Source: Litorivicinus sp.
GTDB taxonomy: Bacteria; Pseudomonadota; Gammaproteobacteria; Pseudomonadales; Litorivicinaceae
Assembly (NCBI GenBank): GCA_018401755.1
Contig: JAGYKJ010000007.1
Location: 372,001-436,000, forward strand
DNA length: 64,000 bases
Reading direction: 5' to 3'
Shown: piece after piece, positions 60,692-64,000 of the stretch
How the letters are laid out: each line of letters starts with the position of its first letter
Position numbering within the stretch: the stretch's first letter is position 1
Translations under genes and position numbers: made by a program
The notes under the pieces: generated by a model
Told to the model about the DNA's origin: nothing
Databases searched by the model: none
Seen by the model: the letters and a program-made list of their open reading frames with translations, nothing else

Positions 60692-61324
60692 GTGGAGTCT
60701 CCTCATTTTACGATGTCTGCTCAGATGGCACTCAACGCACATCTCCATCTAATCAAGGTGATGCCAAAAAAGCTATCCCTAATGATCGCATCACTTGGGC
60801 CGATCGAGATCCCGCATCGGTATGGGGATGATCCACGGGATGGATTGGTCGGCGTCGTCATTGGGCAGCAAGTGTCGGCACAGGCGGCGCGCGCGATTCG
60901 CGAGCGTGTGTTTACTTCGTTTGCCAGTCGAGAGGCCCTGTATGCGGCAGCACAACGTGGCCAGCTTGACGCACATGGTCTTTCTAAAGCGAAGCAAAAA
61001 ACGATTCAATTCATCAGCTTATTGAGTGATATTAAATTCTCTCAATGGCAAAACCTAGCTTATCCGCAGCGACTGACCGAGATGACGCAGGTCCCTGGCA
61101 TTGGTCCATGGACGGTTGCAATGTGGTCGATGTTTGTCTGCCAAGATCCGGACTGTTGGTCTGATGGCGATCTTATTTTGCGGACACGGATGGACGGTCT
61201 TGCACAGGAGGCTCAAATTAATCGTCAGCAGATGTTGCGTCAGGCAGAGCCTTATCGCACCTATTTGGCGCTGTACCTTTGGACATTCAAAGATCAACTC
61301 CCTCGGGAGAGCACGACCCCTTGA
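60692..61324 (+). CDS. DNA-3-methyladenine glycosylase II-like (AlkA/HhH-GPD)
   Basis: Removes alkylated bases from DNA. About 210 residues, a glycosylase core without the extra N-terminal domain of E. coli AlkA. LVGVVIGQQVSAQAARAIRE is near 52. The helix-hairpin-helix is QVPGIGPWTVAMWSMFVC near 137, followed by the catalytic Asp in CWSDGDLILRT. The start is uncertain: GTG 60692, ATG 60713 or ATG 60725. The 3' end overlaps the convergent ogt gene by 31 bases. Confidence 0.88.
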   Translation: MESPHFTMSAQMALNAHLHLIKVMPKKLSLMIASLGPIEIPHRYGDDPRDGLVGVVIGQQVSAQAARAIRERVFTSFASREALYAAAQRGQLDAHGLSKAKQKTIQFISLLSDIKFSQWQNLAYPQRLTEMTQVPGIGPWTVAMWSMFVCQDPDCWSDGDLILRTRMDGLAQEAQINRQQMLRQAEPYRTYLALYLWTFKDQLPRESTTP

Positions 61325-61782
61325 TCAGTCACGGCCCAGCCCTCTCGTGTGAGCAGTTTTATCTTCAGATCGATACCCCAGGCATACCCTCCCAACCCTT
61401 GATTGCGTCGTATGACCCGATGACAGGGAATCAAAACGGCGCAGGGATTTGATCCACAGGCATTGGCCACAGCGCGAGTCGCGCGAGGATTGCCCACCTG
61501 CTCTGCCAACACCGAATAGGTCAGCAATTGGCCGCGGGGAATGGTCCGTAAAGCGTGCCAAATCGTCTGTTGAAATGCACTTCCTTGCAAAGCAATGGGT
61601 AGGTCGAGAGCGTCAGATCGACCATCTAAGCAGTCCTGAATCTCCGCATAGACGGCCTTTGGAAACTTGCGCGCGGTGTCGCCGAGAGTCTCTGATTGAA
61701 GGAACTCAATCCGCGTGACGGCACATCCATTCCAGTGCGCGGTCACAGCGCCGAGAGGGCTCATGAACCAAGCTTGCATCAT
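61294..61782 (-). CDS. ogt: Methylated-DNA-protein-cysteine methyltransferase
   Basis: A suicide enzyme that takes methyl groups from O6-methylguanine. About 162 residues. The C-terminal domain has GSAFQQTIWHALRTIPRGQL and YSVLAEQVGNPRATRAVANA. The acceptor Cys is in VLIPCHRVIR, followed by GLGGYAWGIDLKIKLL. The start at ATG 61782 overlaps the stop of the upstream small gene (ATGA), with GAGGG before it. It pairs convergently with an alkyl-base glycosylase. Confidence 0.94.
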   Translation of the reverse strand: MMQAWFMSPLGAVTAHWNGCAVTRIEFLQSETLGDTARKFPKAVYAEIQDCLDGRSDALDLPIALQGSAFQQTIWHALRTIPRGQLLTYSVLAEQVGNPRATRAVANACGSNPCAVLIPCHRVIRRNQGLGGYAWGIDLKIKLLTREGWAVTDQGVVLSRGS

Positions 61783-61958
61783 TGCCCTCGCGTTGGCGGC
61801 GCAAATGTACAGATGGCACCGCTGCCTCCGGATGTCGACCCCCATGCGATCGGATCTGGGGCACGGTAAGGGTCGGGCGCCGCGCCAAGTAACCAGTCCC
61901 CACTGATGACGATCATCAGCCAAAGCATGGCGAGTCCAATGCCAGCACGGCGGGTCAT
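61779..61958 (-). CDS. 59-residue membrane-anchored small protein
   Basis: The product begins MTRRAGIGLAMLWLMIVISG, then DWLLGAAPDPYRAPDPIAWG and a Gly/Ser-rich end with one Cys (GSGAICTFAPPTRGQ). One N-terminal hydrophobic helix could be a membrane anchor or a signal peptide. AAGGGG precedes the ATG. It overlaps the transporter stop by ATGA and the ogt start by ATGA, so it is coupled on both sides. I do not recognise a family. Real expression is inferred from the overlaps and the ribosome site. Confidence 0.6.
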   Translation of the reverse strand: MTRRAGIGLAMLWLMIVISGDWLLGAAPDPYRAPDPIAWGSTSGGSGAICTFAPPTRGQ

Positions 61959-63046
61959 ATTATCCCCTTGGGCACGGCGCATTGCCACAGCCAGTCGCGA
62001 GCACTGACCCCTCCGATAGAACCAATGAAGGCGGCGATGAGCCATATCCATCCATGTAAGCTGCCTGAGGCGATGCCACTAAATAAGGCGCCGACATTGC
62101 ATCCAAACGCGAGACGGGACGAGATGCCGAGCGCCAATCCTGCAGCCAGGATCGCGCCATAGAACCACCATTGCACAGACGGGCGAAGCGCGGTCTGTTC
62201 TGCGCCCTTCCATGCTGCTAAGGCGGCTCCAGCGATTAATCCAAAGTCGGTGAGCGATGTGGTGTCTGTCAGCACAGACTGTGACAGTGCCTGGGCGTTG
62301 ATTGGGTGTATCCAAAAGTCTGCAGTGCTGGGATCCCAGCCAAGCCCTGTCGCGAATTTGGCCGCCCATAGTCCGAGTCCATAGACCACACCCCAGGGTT
62401 GCCCTGCGATGACGACATGCAAGCTAGCCAATACGGCAACACCGACAGCGGCAATCAGAAGCTGCTTATTCCATCGTGCCGTGCCCTGCCCGCGAGTCGC
62501 CCACGCGGCTAACCCAATAAGGCCGACCACGGTGATCACGAGACTTGGTGCGACCCCAAAGGTCTCTGGGAGTGACACAGTGATGTGGGTGGTGTTGATG
62601 ATCGCGAGCGGCAGGATTAATGTGCCCAGAAAGCTACCCACACAGAATGCAGGCAGTGCAACCAATGCAATGAGATTTCCAGATCCCGCGTTGACTAGCG
62701 TCCCTGATCCGCACCCGAGGATCAGTTGCATGGCAAAGCCAAAGATCAACGCGCCTAAGATCATCGTGACTGACACTGGCGCGATTGCGCCGATTAAGGA
62801 TGACGATTGGGCAATCAAGGGCTGGATGATAATTGCGGTCAAACCAATCGCGACACACTGGGCAAGAACCCCCTGCCCTTGCCGTTCTCGAATGAGGCGC
62901 CGCCAAGGACCGGCGAAGCCGAACCCAAATCGTTCCAAGATAAATCCAATACCCAACCCAACCAGAGCGGTCAGTGAATAGCGAACGCCCGCCATAATAG
63001 CGAGCGCTCCCAGAAGAATCACGATCAGACCGACACGAAGAATCAT
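61955..63046 (-). CDS. YeeE/YedE family transporter, probable thiosulfate uptake
   Basis: 363 residues with about ten membrane helices (PF04143). The two family motifs around conserved Cys are LILGCGSGTLVNAGSGN near 110 and LAFGCNVGALFSGIASGSLH near 310. A further Cys is in LVALPAFCVGSF. E. coli YeeE (TsuA) imports thiosulfate with such cysteines. A rhodanese gene 36 bases upstream in the same direction supports thiosulfate as substrate. Confidence 0.88.
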   Translation of the reverse strand: MILRVGLIVILLGALAIMAGVRYSLTALVGLGIGFILERFGFGFAGPWRRLIRERQGQGVLAQCVAIGLTAIIIQPLIAQSSSLIGAIAPVSVTMILGALIFGFAMQLILGCGSGTLVNAGSGNLIALVALPAFCVGSFLGTLILPLAIINTTHITVSLPETFGVAPSLVITVVGLIGLAAWATRGQGTARWNKQLLIAAVGVAVLASLHVVIAGQPWGVVYGLGLWAAKFATGLGWDPSTADFWIHPINAQALSQSVLTDTTSLTDFGLIAGAALAAWKGAEQTALRPSVQWWFYGAILAAGLALGISSRLAFGCNVGALFSGIASGSLHGWIWLIAAFIGSIGGVSARDWLWQCAVPKGII

Positions 63047-63082: not shown

Positions 63083-64000
63083 TTAATTTGCGAGCTCGTT
63101 AAACCATTTTTTGGTTTTCAACACGGCAAACTGGATCGCTGATGGCACATTATCCATGCGTGAGTCGGTATTTGACCAGGCCACGATGGATTCTGCATAG
63201 AGCTTGACGTCGGGCACTTGGGCGACTTCGCTTAACACAAACCAATTGGTTGCTGCCCAGTGTCCAGTGTTGCAATAACTGATTGTATTGGCGGTATCCA
63301 GTCCGTTGGCCTTGACGATTTCCACAACCTCACCTTGCGCTTTTAAAAAAGGAGACTTGGGTGCGAAGAATGCGTCAAATGCCAAATTGTCTGCACCAGG
63401 CAGTGCGCCGGGCTTGCTGGCAGCACCATGCCATGCTTTGCCATTAAAGAAGTCGGCAGGACGTGCGTCGAGTAATCGTGTTCCCGGATTTTGTGTCTCG
63501 GCTTGCACATCTGCAGTTGAGGCATACCACTGATTGTTAAATACAAGTGTTGGGGATGTCGCCAGTACCTGAGGCACCCCTGAGGCCATCGCGAATCCGG
63601 CACTTTGATAGGCTTTGACCCCGCCATTTAGGACCGCCAAATTTTCGAAACCAACGGATTTAAGCGTCCAGTACACGCGCGCCGCAGCCCCAAAATCTGA
63701 GCTGTTTTTTCCTTCATGTGCAACCACGACTGAATCACTGAGATCCAGGCCTGCAGCACCGAAAATGGCCGCCAGTTGCGTTAACTCAGGTAATTTCCCT
63801 GGGTTTTCTGCAGGCCCACGGAATTTCCCGTACGGAATCTGGACGGATCCCGTGATGTGCGCTTGCGCGAACGCTTTTACGTCACCGCGAATATCGACGA
63901 TCTTGACCGCCTGCTGTTGTACCAGGGCGTCTAAATCCGAAGCCTCGATGATTGGTGACAGGGTTGCCGCCTGCGTCAAAGAGACAGAGGTGACAACGGC
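63083..64000 (-). CDS. Exported double-rhodanese thiosulfate sulfurtransferase (partial, start outside window)
   Basis: Transfers sulfane sulfur from thiosulfate to an acceptor. The frame stays open to the window edge; its first visible residues AVVTSVSLTQAATLSPIIEA look like the end of a signal peptide, so the true start is upstream. Domain 1 (about residues 10-130) has KIVDIRGDVKAFAQAHITGS without a catalytic Cys. Domain 2 has RLLDARPADFFNGK and the active loop ISYCNTGHWAATNWF. First visible gene of an operon with the YeeE-type transporter. Confidence 0.92.
   Translation of the reverse strand, partial: AVVTSVSLTQAATLSPIIEASDLDALVQQQAVKIVDIRGDVKAFAQAHITGSVQIPYGKFRGPAENPGKLPELTQLAAIFGAAGLDLSDSVVVAHEGKNSSDFGAAARVYWTLKSVGFENLAVLNGGVKAYQSAGFAMASGVPQVLATSPTLVFNNQWYASTADVQAETQNPGTRLLDARPADFFNGKAWHGAASKPGALPGADNLAFDAFFAPKSPFLKAQGEVVEIVKANGLDTANTISYCNTGHWAATNWFVLSEVAQVPDVKLYAESIVAWSNTDSRMDNVPSAIQFAVLKTKKWFNELAN

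Follow-up and report, generated by a model that had tools for sequence, protein, structure and literature searches.

A cysteine-tailed single-pass membrane protein encoded between yeeE and ogt in Litorivicinus is a candidate partner of a rhodanese-linked YeeE transporter

At the end of the window (the whole 64,000-nucleotide stretch of Litorivicinus sp. DNA analysed here), a 59-codon open reading frame (ORF) lies between a YeeE-type transporter gene and ogt. Comparison with other genomes placed it in a conserved module consisting of a tandem rhodanese, probably exported, a two-cysteine YeeE, and a single-transmembrane (TM) protein with a predicted periplasmic, cysteine-bearing tail. On balance, we read the 59-residue protein as the Litorivicinaceae form of a dedicated YeeE partner that would pass sulfane sulfur from the rhodanese to YeeE. 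As far as our searches reach, and as judged from sequence, the small protein is a previously undescribed partner of a known transporter family.

Gene organization at the end of the window

The genes are arranged on the minus strand in the order rhodanese, yeeE, 59-codon ORF and ogt. The window edge cuts the rhodanese gene (63083-64000; contig end at 64051), which has two Rhodanese (PF00581) stretches, and a second rhodanese gene follows the first on the same strand, just beyond the window. The yeeE gene (61955-63046) encodes a 363-aa transporter matching Sulf_transp (PF04143, 1.2e-40, 140.4 bits versus a gathering cut-off of 27), with the codons of C112 at 62711-62713 and of C316 at 62099-62101. 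The ogt gene (61294-61782) was identified by its match to DNA_binding_1 (PF01035, 3.2e-32) and judged to lie outside the module by neighbourhood comparison.

The 59-codon ORF (61779-61958) overlaps both neighbours by 4 nt. Its ATG (61958-61956) and the yeeE stop TGA (61957-61955) form an ATGA junction, and its own stop TGA (61781-61779) overlaps the first ATG of the sequence ATGATG (61782-61777), in which either ATG is a possible ogt start; the coordinates thus confirm the ATGA overlaps that the initial annotation had noticed on both sides. The encoded protein has one hydrophobic segment, at about residues 5-24 (codons 61887-61946), predicted from hydropathy to be a TM helix with the N-terminus inside according to the charge rule, followed by a predicted periplasmic tail (residues 25-59, codons 61782-61886) that contains PDPYRAPDPIAWGSTSGGSGAICTF and the single cysteine, Cys50 (codon 61809-61811). 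No Pfam match was obtained for this protein up to E = 1, and no NCBIfam or Pfam family exceeded its cut-off, either for the 59-mer or for seven distant partner proteins. The possibility of a lipoprotein was rejected on inspection, as Cys50 lies ~25 residues past the TM segment and there is therefore no lipobox.

Conservation and selection of the small gene

The genomes of relatives searched for YeeE numbered 57. Named relatives include the strains LSUCC0096 and HIMB30 and metagenome-assembled genomes called Litoricola and Litorivicinus. Besides the window, 16 loci retained the yeeE 3' end and enough downstream DNA to be assessed. The small ORF was located directly after yeeE in 14 of these (13 from the same genus and one from a sister genus), with YeeE about 61-80% identical to that of the window. 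The two loci lacking it carry distant YeeE copies from the sister genus, one 32% identical (L019) and the other 48% identical over a 44-residue piece (L027). The search for conserved small genes after other yeeE genes, suggested with the initial annotation, thus yielded homologues rather than their absence.

Fifteen residues, including one Cys, were invariant across 14 small proteins (that of the window included), and M1, A38, G40, S41, G47 and C50 were invariant across 17 aligned direct-family sequences. Among 12 coding sequences, mean pN was 0.22 and mean pS 0.74, with pN lower than pS in all 66 pairs, these ratios being rough since synonymous sites are near saturation. Constraint was much stronger on the tail (pN 0.10, pS 0.76) than on the N-terminal region with the TM segment (pN 0.34).

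A strict classifier was applied, which asks for an ORF of 45-130 aa that starts close to the preceding stop codon and encodes an N-in TM segment and a tail with Cys. Of 66 yeeE ends, 32 were positive, all of which belong to the partner set, and block-shuffling of the downstream regions gave 10 positives in 5000. Long ORFs (at least 250 aa, not all of them genes), taken on both strands from the window, L047 and L033-L046, provided a further 104 ends, 15 of them positive; 14 of these 15 corresponded to the small gene itself, which leaves 1 out of 90 others. The partner label combines a classifier with a reading of three frames and is a judgement; the classifier in the form first used missed L010, recorded in the family survey, and several distant partners that were recognised by reading. 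Judging from its retention after yeeE in 14 of 16 loci, purifying selection on the tail and the rarity of such ORFs in shuffled DNA, the 59-codon ORF is very probably a real gene.

Small partner proteins in other Proteobacteria

A search with profile A1 in 369 genomes of the class returned the window itself as the sole strong match; four weak matches (E 3.5e-4 to 0.01, one with an internal stop) were rejected as relatives, and no relative of the 59-mer was found on viral contigs. Distant partners, which this profile missed, were located by position, by reading the DNA behind remote yeeE genes. After many Proteobacteria YeeE genes, this position encodes a short protein with one N-terminal TM segment, a predicted periplasmic tail and cysteines; in these distant partners, the TM segment ends in Asp, often Asp-His, and is followed by the Cys-bearing tail. 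A partner was present at 51 of 101 YeeE loci, with a tail Cys in 50 of the 51 proteins. The sole exception, L069, keeps the TM segment and the DH motif ahead of a tail without Cys. Charge distribution was evaluated for L018 and for 37 of the 51 proteins, and indicated an N-in/C-out orientation in all 38.

Several types of tail were observed. The type NPY.AP...ALGSG..A.GGFCG, found in L048, L080, L081 and Rhodobacterales, is close to the window's form; the others are CAPCGAPC, SPCGL repeats and PCAA-type (NPCAA) repeats. Profile comparison between tail types with hhalign gave probabilities of 77%, 49% and 2.8%, values that do not demonstrate homology. The partner proteins of L125 and L158 have 11 and 8 Cys, respectively, and L086 (2631-3245, plus strand) encodes a 205-residue form with 28 Cys in NPCAA/NPCGA repeats. 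In the SPCGL-type loci, a gene for a DUF6969 (PF22308) protein was observed after the small gene (L108, 6302-6895; L109, 3286-3894; L111, 4091-4708; L114, 4088-4768; L117, 6298-6975), mostly with rhodanese next; a literature search found no paper mentioning DUF6969.

Plasmids of Haematobacter, Qingshengfaniella, Paracoccus alcaliphilus and Marivivens carry, in this order, genes for a rhodanese-like protein, YeeE and a 54-aa 'hypothetical protein' with a 4-nt overlap, so that all three genes are present, and the small one annotated as a protein, on four RefSeq Rhodobacterales plasmids. The gene table of a Sinorhizobium meliloti RCAM1115 plasmid lists a sulfurtransferase, YeeE and a 195-aa hypothetical protein, with nothing between the last two; the DNA of that interval contains an ORF for a TM peptide whose tail has APCAAGAPC, and pSymB of S. 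meliloti 1021 carries an ORF matching this peptide. These PLSDB gene tables are incomplete and the original S. meliloti records may list the peptide. No description of the small partner was found in the accessible parts of the literature, including PMC11582611, PMC11073785, PMC10812762, PMC13047784 and PMC8269220, subscription papers being mostly beyond reach.

Cysteines, fold and phylogeny of YeeE

Profile alignment to SpTsuA showed that C91 and C293 are kept in the window's YeeE, as C112 and C316, respectively, and that the C22 site is occupied by Gly. Over 101 YeeE sequences, this site was G in 91, S in 4, A in 2 and L in 1, with 3 unread, and was never Cys in the 98 readable sequences. NCBIfam cut-offs for TsuA were far above the scores obtained (35 bits versus 400, and 14.7 versus 645). 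Selenium transport was rejected, the best NCBIfam match, YedE/FdhT, scoring 69.5 bits against a cut-off of 350. The genome has three TusA-family matches, none adjoining the module, and one SoxY match. Thiosulfate is thus not assured as a substrate, because these YeeE proteins are without the third, cytoplasmic cysteine of TsuA, and the initial assignment as a thiosulfate-type transporter appears doubtful.

A search of the PDB with the single YeeE sequence gave no match, and profile A2 retrieved 6LEO and three related entries. For the relative L050, an AlphaFold model of YeeE fused by read-through to the peptide had a mean pLDDT of 88.6, and its best Foldseek matches were 6LEO (E 3.5e-10), 8J4C and 8K1R. 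In this model, the peptide helix (pLDDT 64-73) and the tail (<50) were uninformative on docking.

In a YeeE tree of 65 rows, a single branch (SH-aLRT 90-91) separated the 39 partner-bearing rows from the rest, corresponding to 1 change. When the tree was enlarged by 36 loci (51 bearers out of 101), the trait required 4 changes, at least two of them forced by starred branches, versus a mean of 34 after shuffling; the two trees come from rapid searches, and their internal branches are weak. The small number of changes suggests that the peptide was largely inherited with its YeeE, with few losses or gains. A Gly after the second YeeE cysteine was found in 49 of 51 sequences with a partner versus 14 of 50 without; it follows the tree and was not taken as proof. 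The 66-YeeE set excludes sequences that were truncated, duplicate or too weak (L015, L017, L018, L020, L023-L027, L097, L102, L103), copies of the window (L001, L002, L028) and L033-L046, whose genomes were already included. L021 and L022 were left out of the trees and retained among the 28 non-partner loci of the rhodanese count, and L135, L137, L138, L140 (repeats of L081, L086, L090, L085) and L124 (a repeat of L134 of S. meliloti) were dropped.

Cys was the last YeeE residue (..SGC, ..TAC) at 12 of 50 loci without a partner (L054, L072, L083, L084, L089, L091, L092, L094, L096, L130, L131, L132) versus 0 of 51 with one. This terminal Cys is probably cytoplasmic, since natural YeeE-YeeD fusions join at the C-terminal end of YeeE (PMC11073785, available text).

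Association with rhodanese genes

The rhodanese gene, which the initial annotation did not include, is the third component of the module. Among the loci examined, it preceded yeeE in those of the Litorivicinaceae, Rhodobacterales and CAPCGAPC types, and lay downstream, after the DUF6969 gene, in those of the SPCGL type. Co-occurrence was scored by tblastn at 1e-8 (the window being counted from its Pfam match) in the flanking DNA; the flanks of genome loci measured at most 1.5 kb, or less where a contig ended, and those of plasmid records 2.5-4 kb. A rhodanese match was obtained at 36 of 38 partner loci versus 0 of 28 others, in a first set that favours the link since the queries were drawn from partner loci, and at 48 of 51 versus 4 of 50 in the enlarged set. 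The later samples are fairer: 26 added loci, whose class was inferred to be Alphaproteobacteria, comprised 5 with both genes, 1 with the partner only, 3 with rhodanese only and 17 with neither, and 10 plasmid loci comprised 6 with both, 3 with neither and 1 with rhodanese only. A test on independent pairs did not reach significance (median p 0.5): YeeE proteins with and without a partner diverge at few points of the tree, which left 2-4 pairs, with an average of 1.9 out of 2 concordant.

Three partner loci had no rhodanese match: L056, with a Cys tail, in 18 kb; the Cys-less L069 in 11.5 kb; and L161 within its 2.2-kb locus. A match with no partner seen was recorded for L133, L147, L151 and L162. 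The YeeE proteins of L147 and L151 are related, and the nearby rhodanese match, at 35-39% identity, is perhaps of another type.

Export and tandem organization were inspected in 19 rhodaneses, all of which share an active-site-like motif, C-N-[T/S]-G-H. By eye, a signal peptide was plausible in 15 of the 19 as called, and the window's rhodanese and those of L107, L119 and L123 need a later start. With such a start the window's rhodanese has a plausible signal peptide, and it is probably exported.

Proposed function and alternative explanations

Several known systems resemble parts of the module. TsuA/YeeE with TsuB/YeeD, which takes up thiosulfate (PDB 6LEO, 8K1R), has the same fold as that predicted for the relative L050, and its C293 and C91 are kept here, whereas its third Cys is Gly in the present YeeE. 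YeeD is TusA-like and lies on the cytoplasmic side, whereas the present partner is a membrane peptide whose tail is predicted to be periplasmic, and a rhodanese joins the set. In the available text on SpYeeE, C293, C91 and C22 are the first, second and third cysteines, C22 being at the interface with cytoplasmic YeeD (PMC11073785); C293 would therefore face the periplasm. The split YedE1E2 (PmpAB) has two conserved Cys only, as in the present YeeE, but consists of two four-helix halves instead of a single 363-aa chain. According to the accessible part of its description (PMC10812762), the two conserved Cys of YedE1E2, one per half, are both essential for its import of zero-valent sulfur, uptake was not accelerated by full-length E. 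coli YedE3, and no small Cys-tail partner was found there. Given that the C22 site was never Cys in the readable sequences and that a two-Cys YedE1E2 imports zero-valent sulfur, the substrate is more likely to be sulfane sulfur than intact thiosulfate. In Hyphomicrobium denitrificans, SoxT1A, a YeeE-like importer, also adjoins a periplasmic thiol protein; this neighbour is DsbA-like, with a Cys motif at its extreme C-terminus, and a role in releasing sulfur to the importer has been considered (PMC11582611, in part). Unlike the present module, the neighbour is thioredoxin-like and SoxT proteins have three conserved Cys, as far as the available text goes (PMC11582611).

In the proposed mechanism, thiosulfate or some other donor in the periplasm would first supply sulfane sulfur to the rhodanese, whose C-N-T-G-H cysteine would hold it as a persulfide. 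The tethered, flexible tail would take the sulfur onto its own cysteine and deliver it to the first, periplasmic cysteine of YeeE, C316, from which it would pass via C112 into the cytoplasm to a TusA-like acceptor; the many-Cys forms (SPCGL and NPCAA repeats) may constitute a larger relay or buffer. The sequences show conservation, linkage and the missing third Cys, topology and export are predicted, and we infer the persulfide on the tail, its docking and the direction of transfer. A sulfur-carrying tail is the best reading because the protein would hold a tethered thiol beside the periplasmic YeeE cysteine and is genetically tied to a probably exported rhodanese. The flexible C-terminal Cys of SoxY carries sulfur in the periplasm as a swinging arm, to which the present tail may be likened; SoxYZ is a soluble folded protein, and the tested small proteins had no significant Pfam match, SoxY included. 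The SoxY and TusA-family matches, together with the growth on thiosulfate of LSUCC0096, a member of the same group with predicted thiosulfate-oxidation genes (PMC8269220, available text), indicate that possible donors and acceptors exist.

More tentatively, and in our judgement a little short of probable, the module may represent an undescribed three-part importer of protein-bound sulfur, in which an exported rhodanese loads a tethered tail of 1-28 Cys, the tail feeds a two-cysteine YeeE, and covalent hand-over replaces free thiosulfate. SoxYZ-bound sulfur enters the cytoplasm by unknown means and sulfur import is poorly understood, according to the accessible part of the SoxT paper (PMC11582611). 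For this import the module offers candidates, namely the rhodanese and a peptide that had been overlooked; they occur both in the class to which the window belongs and in Alphaproteobacteria, among them the laboratory strain S. meliloti 1021. It also calls for caution before every YeeE is taken for a thiosulfate transporter.

The suggestion that the 59-mer is a small subunit of the transporter was supported as regards conserved linkage and, with part of the YeeE family, largely shared inheritance; binding to YeeE is presumed. A purely structural or assembly subunit, whose TM helix stabilises or gates YeeE in the way of small subunits of other transporters and whose cysteines only form tail-anchoring disulfides, would agree with the position and overlap of the peptide gene and with L069, whose Cys-less peptide is difficult to reconcile with an indispensable carrier role; we consider it unlikely, though worth keeping in mind, as the Litorivicinaceae tail is far more conserved than the N-terminal/TM part and Cys occurs in nearly all tails, expanded into arrays in L086. 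Less probable still is a role in metal binding, in which the tails would sense or scavenge soft ions (copper, zinc, mercury) near the transporter: the CAPCGAPC and NPCAA arrays may resemble metal-binding motifs, but the linked genes are those of rhodanese and YeeE, the window's one-Cys form is a poor metal site, and a Pfam scan that covered 20 of 111 neighbour ORFs revealed no recognisable metal gene.

A part in a sensor reporting periplasmic sulfane sulfur is improbable. The YeeE-like SoxT1B of Hyphomicrobium acts in signal transduction, according to the available text (PMC11582611), and a LacI-family regulator gene adjoins the module in Paracoccus alcaliphilus, but no regulator is listed in the other three Rhodobacterales stretches or was recognised among the 20 scanned neighbours and the scanned window-side genes, one ORF of which had no Pfam match. 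The small gene/ogt junction is close or overlapping throughout the window's genus, and could suggest that alkylation repair draws on the sulfur supply or on cysteine chemistry. By tblastn, however, ogt was present at 13 of 103 loci, which were all 13 loci of the window's genus, and at 0 of the 90 others, the sister genus (L005) included. Because the module occurs elsewhere without ogt, a functional link is very improbable, and Ogt is best regarded as a local bystander; the reservation in the initial annotation that the link might be only positional was borne out, and its idea of a sulfur operon tied to alkylation repair was not. A chance ORF without product is barely credible in view of the conservation, selection and controls and the protein annotation in four RefSeq relatives, and a carrier of sulfane sulfur to YeeE remains the reading that we prefer.

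Other neighbouring genes

An ORF convergent with ogt (60692-61324, plus strand) had no Pfam match at 1e-3 and contains the sequence VPGIGPWTV, which we take to be a DNA-glycosylase-like motif; if it is a real glycosylase-like gene, ogt would lie beside another alkylation-repair gene. In L006, L007 and L009, an ORF starting after ogt, about 0.8 kb past yeeE, presumably resembles the RuBisCO large subunit. At three loci with no peptide (L070, L095 and L098), yeeE is followed by genes for other exported-looking proteins, which we assume to be thioredoxin-like in L070 and DUF302-like in L095 and L098, the latter two being similar to each other.
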